A stretch of 64,000 bases of DNA from an uncultured Butyricicoccus sp. Lineage in GTDB: Bacteria > Bacillota > Clostridia > Oscillospirales > Butyricicoccaceae. Below are positions 3,122-16,132 of this stretch, piece after piece. Made by a program: the position numbers and the translations under genes. The notes beneath the pieces are model-generated. The model was not told the DNA's origin. It did not search any database and was given only the letters and a program-made list of their open reading frames with translations. The DNA is taken from assembly GCA_944384745.1 (NCBI GenBank), contig CALWUO010000003.1:1-64000 (forward strand). Direction: 5' to 3'. The number at the start of each line of letters is the position of its first letter. Position 1 is the stretch's first letter.

Positions 3122-3263
3122 AATTGTCCTCCAAAACGCATTTTATATAAATAATATCATAAAATATATTAAAAATAAATGTAGATTATATGTATTTTTA
3201 TTATGTGTAATAATCTTTAGAAAAAAACGTAATATAAAAATATGACTGAGCGGGAAAAACGTC

Positions 3264-3291
3264 TTGACAATATTGTTTATGTAAGTATAAT
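3264..3291 (+). promoter_or_regulatory. SigA-type promoter of the speD leader RNA
   Basis: TTGACA at 3264-3269 and TATAAT at 3286-3291 with a 16-nt spacer; both hexamers match consensus. The predicted start is about 3298. It drives the structured RNA at 3298-3656 and, by readthrough, the polyamine operon. Confidence 0.8.
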
Positions 3292-3297
3292 ATATTG

Positions 3298-3656
3298 TTA
3301 GTATGGTATGAGGTGCAGCAGTGCTGTTATCTTTCATGCAAATATTTTCTGACCACTCGCTAGAGAGTTAAGGCCATGCGGACAGCCGGGTCAACTGCCG
3401 AATGGCAACTTTTTCTGTTGCCTTTATTGATTGAGTAAAAACTCAAATTTTATAAGTTGGTTACTTTATAACCAGTGTGCAACGTGTGCACATAAGGCTT
3501 GTGAAAACGTCAATAAGAGTAGTAAAAGTGAAATATTTGCTATATAGACTCTGCTCCAACATTTCCCTCTATGAAATGATAATAACTTCATTTCCTTAAT
3601 TTGACGACATACGCAAGCAATGAAAATCACGTTGCTTGCGTTTTTTATTTTTTTTG
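3298..3656 (+). ncRNA. Structured leader or ncRNA upstream of speD, family not identified
   Basis: About 350 nt between a consensus promoter and a perfect terminator, with no convincing ORF. Pairings visible by eye: an outer closing stem 3312-3318 with 3551-3557 (one internal U-U); a perfect 10-bp long-range helix 3338-3347 with 3531-3540; hairpins 3355-3358/3365-3368, 3404-3409/3417-3422, 3431-3436/3441-3446, 3458-3463/3469-3474 and 3573-3579/3588-3594; and an alternative pairing 3373-3377/3402-3406 that excludes the 3404 hairpin. The stretch 3371-3406 (GGCCATGCGGACAGCC and following) is GC-rich in an AT-rich region, as expected of a conserved RNA core. The speD Shine-Dalgarno site begins right after the T-tract, so this could be a ligand-sensing attenuator of the polyamine operon, or an independent ncRNA with chance placement (the raiA motif is one known family worth testing). 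Confidence 0.7.
3612..3655 (+). terminator. Terminator or attenuator directly before speD
   Basis: CGCAAGCAA (3612-3620) pairs perfectly with TTGCTTGCG (3632-3640) and is followed by 15 bases that are T except one. GGAGGG of speD begins at 3658. All transcription of speD from the upstream promoter must read through it. Confidence 0.9.
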
Positions 3657-3670
3657 TGGAGGGAATCTGT

Positions 3671-4441
3671 GTGGAACAGAAACTTAAATTATATGGATTT
3701 AATAATTTAACAAAAGCTCTTAGTTTTAACATATACGATGTATGTTATGCTAAAACACCTAGAGAACAAATAGATTATATAGCTTATATTGATGAACAAT
3801 ATAACTCAGAACGTCTTACAAAGATTTTAACTAATCTTACAGATATGATTGGTGCTAATGTGCTTAATATCTCAAAACAGGATTTTGACCCACAGGGTGC
3901 ATCTGTTACTTTGCTTATCGCTGAACAAACAATGGTTCCAATAGGGGAGACTCAAGTAGCACATCTTGATAAAAGTCATGTCACAGTTCATACTTATCCA
4001 GAGTATCACCCAGAAACATGTCTTGCTACTTTTAGAGTTGATATAGATGTTGCAACATGTGGAGAAATTACCCCCCTTTCTACTCTTGATTATCTTATTG
4101 GTTCTTTTGACTCAGATATTATAACTATGGATTATCGTGTAAGAGGATTTACAAGAGATGTAAATGGTCAAAAACTATTTTTAGACCATAAAATAGCATC
4201 AATTCAGGATTATATTGACCCTAAAACTCTAAGAAAATATGATGCAGTAGATATAAATGTTTATAGTTCTAATCTATTCCACACAAGAATGATGGTTAAA
4301 GATATAGATTTACAAAATTATTTATTTAAAACAGATGTATATGAATTACCGCCTAAAACTCGTCTTGATATTATGCATAATCTTAGAAAAGAAATGATAG
4401 AGATTTTTAGTGGTAGGAATATTTATAGCCAAGGTGAATGA
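3671..4441 (+). CDS. speD: S-adenosylmethionine decarboxylase proenzyme
   Basis: Produces decarboxylated SAM, the aminopropyl donor for spermidine synthesis. It is the long bacterial (E. coli-like) class, 256 residues. The self-cleavage site is seen in LDKSHVTVHTYPE: cleavage between Lys and Ser would create the pyruvoyl cofactor. Further family motifs are ATCGEITPLSTLDYLIGSFD and DYRVRGFTRD. The start chosen is GTG at 3671, with GGAGGG at 3658-3663 (7-nt spacing); the upstream in-frame ATG at 3620 lies inside the terminator hairpin and is unsuitable. It is the first gene of the polyamine operon and its stop overlaps the region of the next start. Its usual partner SpeE, two genes downstream, carries a premature amber codon, so the fate of the product is uncertain. 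Confidence 0.95.
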   Translation: MEQKLKLYGFNNLTKALSFNIYDVCYAKTPREQIDYIAYIDEQYNSERLTKILTNLTDMIGANVLNISKQDFDPQGASVTLLIAEQTMVPIGETQVAHLDKSHVTVHTYPEYHPETCLATFRVDIDVATCGEITPLSTLDYLIGSFDSDIITMDYRVRGFTRDVNGQKLFLDHKIASIQDYIDPKTLRKYDAVDINVYSSNLFHTRMMVKDIDLQNYLFKTDVYELPPKTRLDIMHNLRKEMIEIFSGRNIYSQGE

Positions 4442-4443
4442 GT

Positions 4444-5901
4444 ATGAAAAAATTGACACAGGAACAAGCACCTATTTATGAAGCTTTAGAGCGTTTTCGT
4501 AAAATGCGTGTAGTTCCATTTGATGTCCCAGGACATAAAAGGGGTAGGGGAAACCCAGAGCTTGCAGCATTATTAGGTGAAACTTGTGTGCAAATGGACG
4601 TTAATTCTATGAAACCGCTTGATAATCTTTGTCACCCGATTTCGGTTATTAGAGATGCGGAGATACTAGCGGCTGAAGCTTTTGGGGCGGCACATGCTTT
4701 TTTAATGGTTGGAGGTACTACTTCTGCTGTTCAAAGTATGGTGCTTTCAGTTGTCGCTAGAGGTGAAAAAATTATTTTGCCTAGAAATGTACATCGTAGC
4801 GTTATGGGAGCATTAGTGCTTTGTGGTGCTATTCCTGTATATGTAAATCCAGCTTGTGATGAGCGTTTAGGCATACCTCTGGGTATGAGTGTTAAAGATG
4901 TGGAAAAAGCTATAAAAGAAAACCCAGATGCAAAGGCTGTGCTTGTAAACAATCCGACTTATTATGGTATTTGTTCAGATTTACGCTCTATTGTAAAATT
5001 AGCACATGATAATAATATGTTATGTCTTGCTGATGAGGCTCATGGTACACATTTTTACTTTGGTGAAAATCTACCTGTATCAGCTATGAAAGCGGGTGCA
5101 GATATGGCGGCTGTATCTATGCATAAATCTGGCGGTAGCCTTACACAGTCATCACTATTGCTTGCTAATAAATCTATGAGTGAGGGACATGTAAGACAGA
5201 TTATAAATTTAACTCAAACCACAAGTGGTTCATATTTGCTTTTAAGCTCGCTTGATATTTCAAGGAGAAATTTAGCACTTAGAGGTAAACAAGCTTTTGC
5301 CAGAGTTTCTCAACTTGCAGATTATGCACGAAATGAAATAAATGCAATCGGTGGATATTATGCTTTTTCAAAAGAGCTTATAAATGGCGATAGTATTTAT
5401 GATTTTGATACAACTAAATTGTCAGTTAATACCCTTGATATAGGTCTTGCAGGTATTGAAGTGTATGATTTATTAAGAGATGAATATGATATTCAAATTG
5501 AGTTTGGCGATTTAGGAAATATTCTTGCTTATTTATCAATAGGTGATAGAGAACGTGAGATAGAAAGACTTGTCGGTGCTTTGGCTGAAGTAAAACGTCG
5601 TTTTTCAAAGAAAGATAAAACAGGGCTTATGGAGCATGAATATATTGACCCAGAAGTTGCAGTCTCTCCACAAGAGGCATTCTATGCAAAACATGAGTCA
5701 TTGCCAATAGAGCAAACAGCGGGCAGAGTTTGCAGTGAGTTTGTTATGTGTTATCCTCCAGGGATACCAATTTTAACCCCAGGTGAAAAAATAACACAAC
5801 CTATTTTGGATTATATTAAATATGCAAAAGAAAAGGGCTGTTCTATGACAGGTCCAGAAGACGCACAAATAGAGCGATTAAACGTATTGAAAGAGGTGTA
5901 A
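4444..5901 (+). CDS. speA: Orn/Lys/Arg decarboxylase, PLP fold type I (probable arginine decarboxylase)
   Basis: PLP enzyme of the Bacillus SpeA/YaaO family, 485 residues. Motifs: VPFDVPGHKRGRG at the N-terminus, AFLMVGGTTSAVQ, LADEAHGTHFYFGE with the PLP-binding Asp, SMHKSGGSLTQSS with the Schiff-base Lys, and the C-terminal CYPPGIPILTPGE. Arginine is the likely substrate because agmatinase (speB) lies in the same operon; lysine or ornithine cannot be excluded by sequence. An ATG at 4438 overlaps the speD stop, but AAGGTG at 4431-4436 fits the ATG at 4444 better (7 nt). It lacks the N-terminal wing domain of the large enterobacterial biodegradative enzymes, as expected for this family. Confidence 0.92.
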   Translation: MKKLTQEQAPIYEALERFRKMRVVPFDVPGHKRGRGNPELAALLGETCVQMDVNSMKPLDNLCHPISVIRDAEILAAEAFGAAHAFLMVGGTTSAVQSMVLSVVARGEKIILPRNVHRSVMGALVLCGAIPVYVNPACDERLGIPLGMSVKDVEKAIKENPDAKAVLVNNPTYYGICSDLRSIVKLAHDNNMLCLADEAHGTHFYFGENLPVSAMKAGADMAAVSMHKSGGSLTQSSLLLANKSMSEGHVRQIINLTQTTSGSYLLLSSLDISRRNLALRGKQAFARVSQLADYARNEINAIGGYYAFSKELINGDSIYDFDTTKLSVNTLDIGLAGIEVYDLLRDEYDIQIEFGDLGNILAYLSIGDREREIERLVGALAEVKRRFSKKDKTGLMEHEYIDPEVAVSPQEAFYAKHESLPIEQTAGRVCSEFVMCYPPGIPILTPGEKITQPILDYIKYAKEKGCSMTGPEDAQIERLNVLKEV

Positions 5902-5903
5902 TA

Positions 5904-6764
5904 GTGGATTTTTGGTTTTCTGAGGCACATACGCCAAATGTAAAGTTATCTATTAAAGTAGACCGTCAGCTTTATAGCGGAAAAAGCGAATTTCAAAGAA
6001 TTGACGTTTTTGACTCCCCAGAGTTTGGCAGATTTTTAACCCTTGATGGCTATATGATGTTAACTGAAAAAGATGAGTTTATTTATCATGAGATGATAAC
6101 TCATGTGCCTATGGCAGTACACCCAAATGTTAAGAAGGTGCTTGTCATTGGTGCGGGCGATGGTGGTGTAGTGGGTTAGCTTACACAATATCAAAATATT
6201 GAAGATGTAGACATGGTGGAGATTGACCCGTTAGTAGTTGAAGTATGTAAAAAATACTTACCTAAAACCGCTTGTAGATTTCATGATGAAAGACTTACAA
6301 TACATTATGAAGATGGATTAAAGTTTGTGCGTTCTCGTGAAAATGAATATGATTTAATTATTGTTGACTCTACTGACCCATTTGGTCCAGGTGAGGGACT
6401 ATTTACAAGAGAATTTTATGGAAACTGTTATAAGGCATTAAAAGAAGACGGCATAATGGTAAATCAACATGAAAGTCCATTTTATGATGCAGATGCTAAT
6501 GCTATGCAAAGAGCACATAAACGTATAGTTGAGTCTTTCCCAATAAGTAGAGTATATCAAGCACATATTCCAACTTATCCATCTGGTCATTGGTTATTTG
6601 GTTTTGCTTCTAAAAAATATCACCCATTAAAAGATTTAAGAGAGACAGCATGGAATATGAATAGTATTCCTTGCAAATATTATACAACAACACTTCATAA
6701 GGGTGCTTTTTATTTACCAGCGTATGTAGAGGAGATGTTAAAAGATGTTGAGTCCGAATGTTGA
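5904..6764 (+). pseudogene. speE: Spermidine synthase interrupted by an in-frame TAG codon
   Basis: Aminopropyltransferase that joins decarboxylated SAM to putrescine. Read in one frame, the gene encodes about 286 residues from a GTG at 5904 (AGAGGTG 5 nt upstream) but has TAG at 6177-6179. The break falls just after the SAM-binding motif VLVIGAGDGGVVG; homologues usually continue with R/G-E-L. After it the same frame resumes as LTQYQNIEDVDMVEIDPLVV and keeps every later motif (DLIIVDSTDPFGPGEGLFT, HESPFY, HWLFGFASKK) to the normal C-terminus. Reversion of one base (TAG to GAG or CAG) would restore it. No frameshift and no other damage is visible, so this is a very recent lesion, a sequence error or a readthrough codon. 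The 3' end overlaps speB by 20 nt. Confidence 0.85.
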
Positions 6765-7599
6765 AACATTTTTATTATGTGATACACCATATGACAAAGC
6801 TGATATAGTGTTATTTGGTGCTCCATATGATTCCACAACTTCATTTAGACCAGGAACACGTTTTGGTCCTCATGCCATACGTTCTGAGTCATTTGGTCTT
6901 GAAAGTTATTCACCTTATCAAGATAAGGATTTAGAAGATTATTCAATTTTAGATGCTGGGGATTTAGAACTTCGTTTTGGTGGTCCAGAATATGCACTAG
7001 AACAAATTGAAAGCCAAACAGAGCAAATTCTATCAGATAATAAATTACCATTTCTTTTAGGTGGGGAACATCTTGTGACACTTGGTTCTTTTAGAGCTGT
7101 TGCGAAAAAATATCCAGATGTGCATATTATTCATTTTGATGCTCATACAGACCTTAGAGAAGATTATTTAGGTGAGCCACTTTCTCATGCTTGTGTTATT
7201 CGTCGTTGCTGGGATATTATAGGTGATAATAAAATTTATCAATTTGGCATTCGTTCAGGTGAGCGTGCAGAATGGCAATGGGCGAAAGACCATGTTACAA
7301 CCAATCGTTTTAATTTAGATGGTTTAAATGATGTTGTAGACAAGTTGGCTGGAAAACCTGTATATTTTACATTAGACCTTGATGTGTTAGACCCATCTGT
7401 TTTCTGTGGAACAGGTACACCAGAACCAGGTGGAGTTAGTTTTGATGAGCTTAGAAAAGCTGTAACGTTGGTTTGCAGTAAGCTTAATATTGTTGGTTGT
7501 GATGTAAATGAATTAAGTCCACATTATGATGCTAGTGGGGCATCTACTGCGGTTGCTTGCAAGATTGTGCGTGAAATGCTTTTAGCACTAAATAAATGA
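6745..7599 (+). CDS. speB: Agmatinase (ureohydrolase family)
   Basis: Hydrolyses agmatine to putrescine and urea using two Mn ions. The 284 residues carry the three ureohydrolase signatures: LLGGEHLVTLG, the metal ligands IIHFDAHTDLR, and the pair YFTLDLDVLDPSVFCGTGTPEPGG. The start ATG at 6745 lies inside the end of speE, with GAGGAGA 9 nt upstream, so translation is probably coupled to speE; the amber codon there could therefore have polar effects. Together with the decarboxylase gene it supplies putrescine from arginine to the two downstream spermidine routes. Arginase or formiminoglutamase activity is less likely given the operon. Confidence 0.94.
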   Translation: MLSPNVETFLLCDTPYDKADIVLFGAPYDSTTSFRPGTRFGPHAIRSESFGLESYSPYQDKDLEDYSILDAGDLELRFGGPEYALEQIESQTEQILSDNKLPFLLGGEHLVTLGSFRAVAKKYPDVHIIHFDAHTDLREDYLGEPLSHACVIRRCWDIIGDNKIYQFGIRSGERAEWQWAKDHVTTNRFNLDGLNDVVDKLAGKPVYFTLDLDVLDPSVFCGTGTPEPGGVSFDELRKAVTLVCSKLNIVGCDVNELSPHYDASGASTAVACKIVREMLLALNK

Positions 7600-7624: not shown

Positions 7625-8884
7625 ATGAGCAAAGTTTTAATTATAGGCTGTGGCGGTGTTGCATCTGTTGCAATTCATAAATGTTGCCAAAATAGTGAAG
7701 TATTTGAAGAAATTTGTATTGCTAGTAGAACTAAGAGCAAATGTGATGCTTTAAAGGTAAAGTTAGAAGGTACAACAAAAACTAAAATTACAACTGAACA
7801 GGTAGATGCAGACCATGTTGAAGAAGTAGTTGCACTTATAAAAAAAGTACAGCCTGATTTAGTAATGAATATTGCTCTTCCATATCAAGATTTAACTATT
7901 ATGGACGCTTGTTTAGAATGTGGCGTAAACTATATGGATACTGCAAACTACGAGCCAGAAGACTTAAATGACCCAGAGTGGAGAGCAGTATATGATAAGC
8001 GTTGTAAAGAAGAAGGCTTTTCTGCTTATTTTGATTATACTTGGCAGTGGGCATATAAAGAAAAGTTTGAAAAGGCTGGTTTAACTGCTTTATTAGGTTC
8101 AGGCTTTGACCCAGGTGTAACTCAGGCTTATTGTGCATATGCTCAGAAACATTTGTTTGATACTATTGACACCATTGATATTTTAGACTGTAATGGTGGT
8201 GACCATGGTTATCCATTTGCTACAAACTTTAACCCAGAAATCAATTTAAGAGAGGTTTCCGCTCCAGGTTCTTATTGGGAAAATGGTCATTGGGTAGAAG
8301 TTCCTGCAATGAGTATTAAGCGTGAATATAACTTTGACCAAGTAGGTCAAAAGGATATGTATTTACTACATCATGAGGAAATTGAATCTTTAGCAAAAAA
8401 TATTCCTAATGTAAAAAGAATTCGTTTCTTTATGACTTTTGGTCAGAGCTATTTAACACATATGAATTGTTTAGAAAATGTAGGTATGTTATCTACTGAG
8501 CCGATTGAATTTGAAGGTCATAGCATTGTACCAATTCAATTTTTAAAAGCACTTTTACCAGACCCAGCAAGTCTTGGTCCTAGAACTGTGGGTAAAACCA
8601 ATATAGGTTGTATTTTCACTGGTAAAAAAGACGGTAAAGAAAAGACTGCTTATATTTATAATGTATGCGACCATCAAGAATGTTATAAAGAGGTAGAGTC
8701 ACAAGCAATTTCATATACTACTGGAGTTCCAGCAATGATTGGTGCTATGATGCTTTTAACTGGTAAGTGGAATAAAGCGGGTGTATATACTGTTGAAGAG
8801 TTTGACCCAGACCCATACATGGACGCTTTAAATAAGTGGGGCTTGCCATGGAATATTGATAATAATCCTGTATTGGTAGACTAA
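7625..8884 (+). CDS. Carboxynorspermidine/carboxyspermidine dehydrogenase (saccharopine dehydrogenase family)
   Basis: NAD(P)H-dependent reductive condensation of a diamine (putrescine, or diaminopropane) with aspartate semialdehyde, giving carboxyspermidine or carboxynorspermidine. Length 419 residues. The Rossmann motif VLIIGCGGVASVAIHKC opens the protein, followed by ADHVEEVVALIKKVQPDLV, a DTANYEPED segment and the LGSGFDPGVTQAYCAYA substrate-domain motif typical of this branch of the LYS9/Lys1 family. SD AGGAGGAAATTCC precedes the ATG. The decarboxylase nspC follows after 5 nt, which settles the pathway: true lysine saccharopine enzymes are not paired this way. Putrescine is the likely substrate because the operon makes putrescine. 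Confidence 0.92.
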   Translation: MSKVLIIGCGGVASVAIHKCCQNSEVFEEICIASRTKSKCDALKVKLEGTTKTKITTEQVDADHVEEVVALIKKVQPDLVMNIALPYQDLTIMDACLECGVNYMDTANYEPEDLNDPEWRAVYDKRCKEEGFSAYFDYTWQWAYKEKFEKAGLTALLGSGFDPGVTQAYCAYAQKHLFDTIDTIDILDCNGGDHGYPFATNFNPEINLREVSAPGSYWENGHWVEVPAMSIKREYNFDQVGQKDMYLLHHEEIESLAKNIPNVKRIRFFMTFGQSYLTHMNCLENVGMLSTEPIEFEGHSIVPIQFLKALLPDPASLGPRTVGKTNIGCIFTGKKDGKEKTAYIYNVCDHQECYKEVESQAISYTTGVPAMIGAMMLLTGKWNKAGVYTVEEFDPDPYMDALNKWGLPWNIDNNPVLVD

Positions 8885-8889
8885 TAATT

Positions 8890-10029
8890 ATGATGCAAAA
8901 ATTTAACGATGGTGGACTTCGCACACCTTATTATTTAATCGATGAAGAAAAGTTAATACAAAATCTTGAAGTATTAAAAGATGTATCTGAGCGGGCGGAA
9001 TGTAAAATTCTGCTTGCCCAGAAAGCATTTTCAATGTTTGCAGTATATCCGCTTATAAAAAAATATTTAGCAGGAACAACAGCAAGTGGTTTATATGAGG
9101 CTCGTTTGGGTTATGAAGAGTTTGGTGGAGAAACACATGTTTTTTCACCTGCATACCGTGAAGATGAATTTGAAGAAATTTTAAAATATGCAGATGATAT
9201 AGTTTTTAACTCAAGTTTGCAAGTTAAGAAATTTGCAAAAAGAGCAAAAGAAAAAGGTAAAAACATAGGGCTTAGAATAAATCCTGAATGTTCAACGCAA
9301 GGGGAGCATGCTATATATGACCCATGTGCTGTTGGTTCAAGACTCGGAACGACTCTTGAAAATCTTGATGAAAGCATTTTGCCTTTGCTTGATGGATTAC
9401 ACTTTCATACACTTTGTGAGCAAAATTCAGACGACCTTGAAACAACTGTTAAAGCATTTGAAGAAAAATTTGGGAAATATCTTTATAATATGAAATGGCT
9501 TAATATGGGCGGAGGTCATCATATTACACGAAAAGACTATGATATAGAACGTTTAATAAATATAATAAAACATATTCGTGAAAAATATGATGTGGAAGTT
9601 TATCTTGAGCCAGGAGAAGCCGTTGTGCTTAATGCAGGTTATCTTATCACAACTGTACTTGAAACAGTTAAAAATGGTATAAATATTGCTATTTTGGATA
9701 CATCAGCGGCTTGTCATATGCCAGATGTTTTGGAAATGCCGTATAGACCACCGTTAATGTTTAGTGGTCAGCCAAACGAAAAAGCCTATACATACCGTTT
9801 AAGTAGTGCTACATGTCTAGCAGGTGATATTATTGGTGATTACTCGTTTGATAAAGAGTTAAATGAGGGCGATAGATTAGCATTTGAAGACATGGCATTA
9901 TATACAATGGTTAAAAACAATACATTTAATGGCATGTCATTGCCAGCAATTGTTTTACGTCACAAAGATGATATGTTTGAAGTTATAAAGCGATTTGGTT
10001 ATGAAGATTTCAAAAATCGTTTATCATAA
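8890..10029 (+). CDS. nspC: Carboxynorspermidine/carboxyspermidine decarboxylase
   Basis: PLP decarboxylase (alanine racemase fold type III) that removes the carboxyl group from carboxyspermidine or carboxynorspermidine, yielding spermidine or norspermidine. Length 379 residues. Motifs: KILLAQKAFSMFAVYP with the PLP lysine, LGTTLENLDESILPLLDGLHFH, NMGGGHHITRKDYD, LEPGEAVVLNAGY and, at the dimer-interface active site, SSATCLAGDIIGDY. The start ATG at 8890 (or 8893) is only 5 nt after the dehydrogenase stop and has no strong SD, so translational coupling is likely. It is the last gene of the operon, followed by a good terminator. Confidence 0.94.
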   Translation: MMQKFNDGGLRTPYYLIDEEKLIQNLEVLKDVSERAECKILLAQKAFSMFAVYPLIKKYLAGTTASGLYEARLGYEEFGGETHVFSPAYREDEFEEILKYADDIVFNSSLQVKKFAKRAKEKGKNIGLRINPECSTQGEHAIYDPCAVGSRLGTTLENLDESILPLLDGLHFHTLCEQNSDDLETTVKAFEEKFGKYLYNMKWLNMGGGHHITRKDYDIERLINIIKHIREKYDVEVYLEPGEAVVLNAGYLITTVLETVKNGINIAILDTSAACHMPDVLEMPYRPPLMFSGQPNEKAYTYRLSSATCLAGDIIGDYSFDKELNEGDRLAFEDMALYTMVKNNTFNGMSLPAIVLRHKDDMFEVIKRFGYEDFKNRLS

Positions 10030-15849: not shown

Positions 15850-16132
15850 AAATATTGTAAATGCAATGAAAGAGAAAGTAGCAATGTCTTTTGTATTTTT
15901 CAGGGAGTGCTTGTCTTGACTGTAAACAAGTGCAAATACTGACTTTGTGAAGTTCCCTCTTGAGCAGTAAAGCTGAAACAAATTATTGCGTTAGGTTTTA
16001 ACGGTTTTCCCCCGTTATAGGGATACGGTATGTTTGTATCGGATTTAAAGTGCAGTTTTATACTGAATTTGGGTGGTACCGCGGAAGTTTTGGTCTTTCG
16101 TCCCTTGTTTTAAGGTGACGGGGGGCTTTTTT
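15850..16132 (+). promoter_or_regulatory. T-box leader, predicted tRNA-Phe specific
   Basis: The T-box core GGGTGGTACCGCGG lies at 16071-16084, followed by a terminator stem (CGTCCCTT paired with AAGG and GACG around TTTT) and a run of seven T near 16124-16130. Stem I contains the usual GA-rich kink region (AAAGAGAAAGTAG near 15867) and a specifier segment GTGAAGTTCCCTCTTGAG at 15947-15964. The codon in the usual position is TTC (15953-15955), phenylalanine. Smaller hairpins include GATAC/GTATC near 16020-16040. Uncharged tRNA-Phe would bind and stabilise the antiterminator, raising expression of aroF-aroB-aroC-pheA-aroA-aroEK. The Phe reading is consistent with pheA in the operon; the alternative frame reading (GTT) is less likely. 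Confidence 0.9.

Follow-up and report, generated by a model that had tools for sequence, protein, structure and literature searches.

The literature searched, the coverage of which is incomplete, yielded a single validated spermidine riboswitch, a variant of the SAM-I riboswitch (Salvail et al. 2023, PMC10853860). It controls ldcC, speE, speB and speD, and turns expression OFF by transcription termination. The same paper describes these first spermidine riboswitches as rare variants, and states that more polyamine riboswitch classes surely await discovery. The potE and odc1 motifs are structured RNAs that have been proposed to control polyamine genes (PMC8632094). In Streptococcus pneumoniae, the small RNA SpF59 (F59, srn235, SN20 or Spd_sr49) lies between SP0915 and SP0916, in the same orientation as the latter. 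A later pneumococcal survey places it at 869478-869804 (327 nt), and transposon mutants of srn235/SN20 show a lung fitness of 0.05 (PMC3395615, Table 2). The pneumococcal literature searched attaches no mechanism to F59/srn235. The RNA reported here is nowhere described as a polyamine leader in the literature searched, which did not include subscription journals or preprints, and a text search of Weinberg 2010 found no polyamine motif.

The window, a stretch of 64,000 nucleotides from an uncultured Butyricicoccus sp. (contig CALWUO010000003.1), carries a polyamine operon with these genes:

3671..4441, + strand: speD, S-adenosylmethionine decarboxylase, GTG start (TIGR03331, 398 bits, scanned from 3680)
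4438..5901, + strand: speA-type Orn/Lys/Arg decarboxylase (PF01276, PF03711)
5904..6764, + strand: speE, spermidine synthase (PF01564, TIGR00417), with an in-frame TAG at 6177-6179
6745..7599, + strand: speB, agmatinase (TIGR01230)
7625..8884, + strand: carboxynorspermidine synthase, CANSDH (PF03435, PF16653; NF043000 at 429 bits, under its cut-off of 800)
8890..10029, + strand: nspC, carboxynorspermidine decarboxylase (TIGR01047, 482 bits, above cut-off)

The operon unites the aminopropyl and carboxyspermidine routes to spermidine. The TAG in speE, as it stands in the assembly, may be a nonsense mutation, a sequencing error or a real loss; the gene is interrupted though the operon also has the carboxynorspermidine route. 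The region before speD has the following layout:

3264..3291, + strand: sigma-70-type promoter, TTGACA-16-TATAAT, with transcription expected to start near 3298
3298..3656, + strand: whole leader RNA, aptamer plus expression platform
3611..3655, + strand: intrinsic terminator, with a 12-bp stem (3611-3622/3630-3641) and then a U-tract
3658..3663, + strand: speD Shine-Dalgarno site, GGAGGG, seen in the sequence

A sequence-only reading of this DNA had proposed a consensus promoter, about 350 nt of densely paired RNA, a 10-bp helix and a terminator immediately before the speD Shine-Dalgarno site, and each of these was borne out. The promoter matches the consensus at 12/12 positions, and the same promoter is seen in close relatives (L005, L009 and L012). 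The predicted fold of 3296-3653, at -99.6 kcal/mol, compares with -78.5 +/- 4.3 for dinucleotide shuffles (z = -4.9), none of 100 shuffles being as good. Three terminator-like sites were found in the region, where 0.2 +/- 0.4 are expected by chance; the U-tract that ends at 3655 is followed by the Shine-Dalgarno site and then by the GTG start of speD at 3671. The 10-bp helix recurs in relatives with altered sequence, its strands pairing at -7.3 kcal/mol within their own locus versus -5.0 across loci, a difference reached in 0/5000 permutations.

The only above-threshold Rfam match in the region by cmscan is to RF02440 (SpF59_sRNA, ldcC RNA), at 66.2 bits versus a gathering threshold of 37.2, which satisfies membership by score. 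The match covers only a 54-nt piece (3350-3401). Rfam types the family as 'Gene; sRNA', and an Rfam alias links SpF59 to ldcC, a decarboxylase gene. According to the sequence-only reading, an Rfam hit to a non-regulatory family without a link to polyamine genes would refute a riboswitch. A piece of the RNA is indeed already known, as an 'sRNA', but members of the family are linked to polyamine genes, so that refutation does not apply. The same reading recognised neither a SAM nor a T-box riboswitch, in agreement with the absence of any such match at 3200-3700. SAM-I gave no match in the window at gathering, nor in 3200-3700 at E 10, and identity with SAM-I or its spermidine variant was rejected because the SAM-I sequence and four-stem fold are lacking. 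A T-box leader does occur in the window, at 15857-16108 (RF00230, 113.7 bits); it is the only one, and T-box identity of the speD leader was rejected. Other Rfam riboswitches were rejected as none matched at 3200-3700, and sub-threshold matches there to Aar, MIR2119 and Esr41 are weak and were judged to be chance. The possibility that the leader is raiA/ModT RNA, raised in the sequence-only reading, or some other known large noncoding RNA has similar size and structure density in its favor. We give it almost no credence, as RF03072 has no match in 3200-3700 at E 10 and RF02440 stands alone above threshold. Nor was RF03072 found in the genome, though the controls of that genome search were also silent; raiA/ModT identity was rejected on an empty covariance-model search, within its sensitivity. 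Upstream ORFs with a Shine-Dalgarno site are present in just 32/149 leaders and at scattered positions, so none is conserved, and a leader-peptide attenuator was rejected on that ground.

Conservation extends over about 215 nt (3338-3552), roughly four times the length of the Rfam model. A structural consensus from a 61-sequence alignment consists of P1, the 5' core, the GGCAAC hairpin, P2 around P3 and P4 (with P5 and P6), and the 3' module, as follows:

3338..3347, + strand: P1, 5' strand, pairing with 3531-3540
3350..3401, + strand: 5' core domain, equal to Rfam RF02440 SpF59_sRNA, with covarying helices
3404..3422, + strand: hairpin GGCAAC/GUUGCC, with two-sided changes in all 5 counted pairs
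3424..3516, + strand: P2, 3424-3430 with 3510-3516, enclosing P3-P6 (RNAalifold consensus)
3433..3444, + strand: P3 hairpin, with A-U to C-G changes at pair 3434-3443
3448..3456, + strand: P4, 5' strand UUUUAUAAG, aptamer partner of the switch strand (consensus helix)
3459..3473, + strand: P5 hairpin GGUUA/UAACC, with covariation at pair 3461-3471
3476..3492, + strand: P6 hairpin, its 3' strand lengthening the antiterminator in many relatives
3497..3503, + strand: switch strand GCUUGUG, partner of the P4 5' strand or of the terminator 5' arm
3508..3552, + strand: 3' module GUCAAUAAGAGUAGUAAAAGU...UUUGCUAUAUAGACUCU, stem 3516-3520/3548-3552, nearly invariant
3531..3540, + strand: P1, 3' strand, pairing with 3338-3347, within the 3' module
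3612..3618, + strand: terminator 5' arm CGCAAGC, antiterminator partner of 3497-3503

Pair counting over the alignment finds 97.9% of cells paired, versus 35-46% in slid controls. Two-sided changes occur at 16 pairs and amount to 181 cells versus 52 in shuffles (0/500), which answers affirmatively the covariation test put forward in the sequence-only reading. Support is uneven among helices. P2 and P4 are both nearly invariant and rest on conservation and one-sided changes only: P2 shows little covariation as a result, and P4 has 99.3% of cells paired with one-sided changes U-G/U-A and A-U/G-U. P5 becomes GGCUA/UAGCC in two loci (L028 and L129), and three separate loci (L011, L177 and L206) carry C-G in place of U-A at pair 3520-3548 of the 3' module stem, a compensatory change. 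That stem and P1 overlap topologically, and must therefore form a pseudoknot or belong to two states. The 5' core contains a GACC...GGUC stem, an inner hairpin, invariant AAGGCCAU-CGGACAGCCG, and UGCCGA. Core positions 3375 and 3384 change in step from C-A to U-G in 3/93 sequences, which matches expectation for an isosteric wobble pair in an invariant core.

The sequence-only reading had placed two mutually exclusive pairings in the GC-rich core, at 3371-3406. These are not conserved; covariation and conservation instead support fixed local helices at 3350-3354/3389-3393, 3355-3358/3365-3368, 3379-3381/3386-3388 and 3404-3409/3417-3422. The switching strand sits in helix P4, outside the GC-rich core, where 3497-3503 pairs with 3612-3618 or else 3498-3506, the P4 3' strand, pairs with 3448-3456. 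Across loci the P4 3' strand CUUGUG complements terminator 5' arms of differing sequence, among them CGCAAG, ACACAAG, ACAAGUGAUG and GCAAGUGUGAUGCGC; arms such as the last complement GCACA(UC)AACUUG, extending into P6. When all 16-nt stretches of each leader were compared, the P6'/P4' strand was the best complement of the terminator 5' arm in 58/89 nonredundant loci, about 5% being expected, and another stretch did equally well or better in the other 31/89. The pairing averages -12.1 kcal/mol, versus -5.6 for shuffled arms and -5.1 for 279 other terminators of the same loci (p = 3e-37), and own pairs beat swapped pairs in 5000/5000 permutations. A simple finder detected no terminator in 45/150 loci, some of which have no recognised P4 strand and some of which have too little sequence or imperfect stems. 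Folding of the window's transcript to 3629 gives the antiterminator 3497-3503/3612-3618 a probability of 0.93 and P4 0.06, while the full-length transcript gives P4 0.94 and the terminator 0.98. Such predicted two-state folding is what one would expect of an attenuator that terminates transcription once its aptamer is stabilised.

RF02440 is present in 24/60 relatives and 18/398 genomes of the phylum. A 22-nt core pattern occurs in at least 118 stretches of species genomes, from Oscillospiraceae, Lachnospiraceae, Paenibacillus, Bacillus, Neobacillus, Acidaminococcus, Phascolarctobacterium, Erysipelotrichaceae and one Spirochaetes MAG; a Lactococcus lactis control genome also carries the core. 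Core-pattern or RF02440 matches with enough downstream DNA make up 142 loci, and in 138 of these the next gene downstream on the same strand is a polyamine gene: speD in 49, speA in 39, potA in 28 and CANSDH in 22. Where PotA loci were inspected, the genes were potABCD, including one for a PotD-like binding protein. The loci are related, so that the counts are not independent events, and a few are duplicated across two collections. For independence from the core used in selection, a covariance model (R1) was built from the 3' domain alone. It matches 24/398 phylum genomes and 78/295 genomes of the window's order, and every one of the 50 loci that could be oriented precedes SpeD (22), SpeA (18), CANSDH (8) or PotA (2), with partial overlap between these loci and the first set. 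Homologues thus recur before polyamine genes (138/142 and 50/50), as the sequence-only reading had suggested checking. Three criteria for a riboswitch are satisfied: the aptamer is conserved, with covariation in its helices and invariance in its core; the expression platform and that aptamer exclude each other; and the RNA is the 5' leader of metabolically related genes across lineages.

The loci without a polyamine gene next are L021, L052, L077 and L113. No P4 strand was found in L052. In the other three the RNA precedes a related secreted-peptidase-like gene, with a terminator between, and this gene may be another member of the regulon. Genomes were seen to carry only a single copy, which leaves control of any second polyamine operon within one genome undemonstrated. 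Viral contigs and phage records gave no match to the RNA, and one large Paenibacillus plasmid record matched; a mobile or phage origin was rejected on these results.

That the element is a cis-acting attenuator is close to certain. The contrary reading, a trans-acting small RNA (SpF59/srn235/SN20) that merely lies beside polyamine genes and ends in a constitutive terminator, seems to us highly improbable. It can draw on the Rfam type, on detection of a discrete RNA in S. pneumoniae, on the single copy per genome and on the lung fitness of transposon mutants. Yet a terminated leader would also appear as a discrete RNA, and insertions in a leader would be polar on the polyamine operon. Moreover, the neighbor is one of four different polyamine loci according to lineage while co-orientation stays constant, and the terminator 5' arm covaries with an aptamer strand, which a plain terminator would not need. 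Leader position and covarying switch argue for a role in cis, although a trans role of the released leader is not excluded. By inference, the 327-nt pneumococcal length fits a terminated leader; srn235/F59 is probably such a leader, with the full-length element in Streptococcus unverified, and the fitness loss of srn235/SN20 mutants likely arises in cis, through the polyamine operon downstream.

Compact variants (L176-L179) lack the SpF59 core and most of P2-P5, while the switch strand, the 3' module, a hairpin resembling a terminator and speD are all retained; two of them, L176 and L178, are about 95 nt long and precede speD. An Rfam search of these variants detected nothing. The SpF59 core therefore looks dispensable, an inference made from these variants, for which decay of the copies is not excluded. 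Because they drop the core, the ligand-sensing heart is inferred to lie more likely in P4 and the 3' module (3448-3552).

Our overall reading, which we consider probable, is that the RNA is a cis-acting transcription attenuator whose aptamer of about 215 nt (3338-3552) senses a polyamine, most likely spermidine, and turns the operon OFF; the polyamine signal, direct binding and OFF sign are inferences. Without ligand, P4 would be unstable and GCUUGUG (3497-3503) would pair with the emerging terminator arm CGCAAGC (3612-3618), so that the terminator would be blocked and speD-speA-speE-speB-CANSDH-nspC transcribed. With ligand, the aptamer (P1, P4 and 3' module) would be locked, P4 would keep the switch strand, the terminator at 3611-3655 would form, and a short leader RNA would be released. 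Computation has established that the RNA is conserved, that it covaries, that it is associated with polyamine genes and that the exclusive pairing recurs; on these grounds the sequence-only proposal of an attenuator or riboswitch leader for the polyamine operon stands, direct ligand binding remaining an inference.

The genes downstream make a response of the RNA to polyamine status very likely, again by inference. That the RNA itself binds the ligand is inferred as likely, without binding, probing or expression data. The same attenuator might be worked instead by an RNA-binding protein or other macromolecule (tRNA, ribosome) that reports polyamine status, since ligand binding by the RNA is not shown, and a protein could find its site in the long stretches of this large RNA that are invariant and unpaired. 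We regard this as unlikely, though still in play: Paenibacillus, Bacillus, Acidaminococcus, Lachnospiraceae, Oscillospiraceae, Erysipelotrichaceae and one Spirochaetes MAG share the RNA and would require an equally widespread unknown protein, and there is no conserved leader ORF and no T-box or ribosomal-leader match.

The genes speA, speD, CANSDH and potABCD differ in substrates and chemistry, and the only outcome they have in common is spermidine supply. For that reason an OFF switch that senses spermidine is the simplest reading of a direct riboswitch, and we infer with modest confidence that spermidine is the main ligand, with the caveat that spermidine is a small ligand for an element of this size. 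Agmatine, made by speA, and S-adenosylmethionine, used by speD, are conceivable ligands, as are decarboxylated SAM, putrescine, norspermidine and carboxyspermidine, and the only validated spermidine riboswitch is itself a SAM-I variant (PMC10853860). A ligand other than spermidine is nonetheless doubtful: putrescine is a substrate of speE and CANSDH, not a product, whereas spermidine is the end product in common, and SAM and decarboxylated SAM fit neither CANSDH nor potABCD. The SAM-sensing option of the sequence-only reading is unlikely for this last reason, carboxynorspermidine synthase and potABCD being targets as well.

If direct binding is confirmed, the RNA reported here would be a new and common class of spermidine riboswitch. 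The candidate is easily testable and is present in many gut and soil Bacillota. If the reading is true, it would explain how these bacteria set their spermidine supply, would recast the pneumococcal "virulence sRNA" srn235/SN20 as a polyamine operon leader, and would give structural biologists working on RNA a large aptamer whose ligand is a small, flexible polycation.

Among described RNAs, raiA/ModT (RF03072) is likewise a large structured RNA of Gram-positive bacteria, without a sequence-structure match to the present one. The remaining polyamine leaders were compared through their publications and not at the sequence level. The potE motif is confined to Veillonella and has no clear platform, and the odc1 motif is alphaproteobacterial and has an upstream ORF (PMC8632094). 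The ABC-leader, like the present RNA at potA loci, is a predicted attenuator before potABCD, in Haemophilus somnus and Pasteurella multocida; it belongs to Gammaproteobacteria and rests on prediction only (PMC2965389). With SpF59 the relation is one of part to whole. Positions 3350-3401 of the window belong to RF02440 (66 bits), but Rfam models 54 nt only, as an sRNA gene, without the antiterminator/terminator platform, and does not detect the compact relatives that lack the RF02440 core. The SAM-I-variant spermidine riboswitch resembles the present RNA in OFF control by termination and in presumed ligand; it is rare and has a four-stem fold, whereas the present RNA has a different, larger fold and occurs in more than a quarter of the genomes searched in the window's order. 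We rate the present RNA a candidate new riboswitch class, one part of which Rfam already listed as an sRNA. On balance we lean toward its being a second, unrelated and far more widespread spermidine riboswitch class in Bacillota, providing feedback on aminopropyl and carboxyspermidine biosynthesis and on import, with its sensing heart in P4 and the 3' module, and hidden until now by an Rfam entry that covers just its 5' 54 nt and calls them an 'sRNA'.
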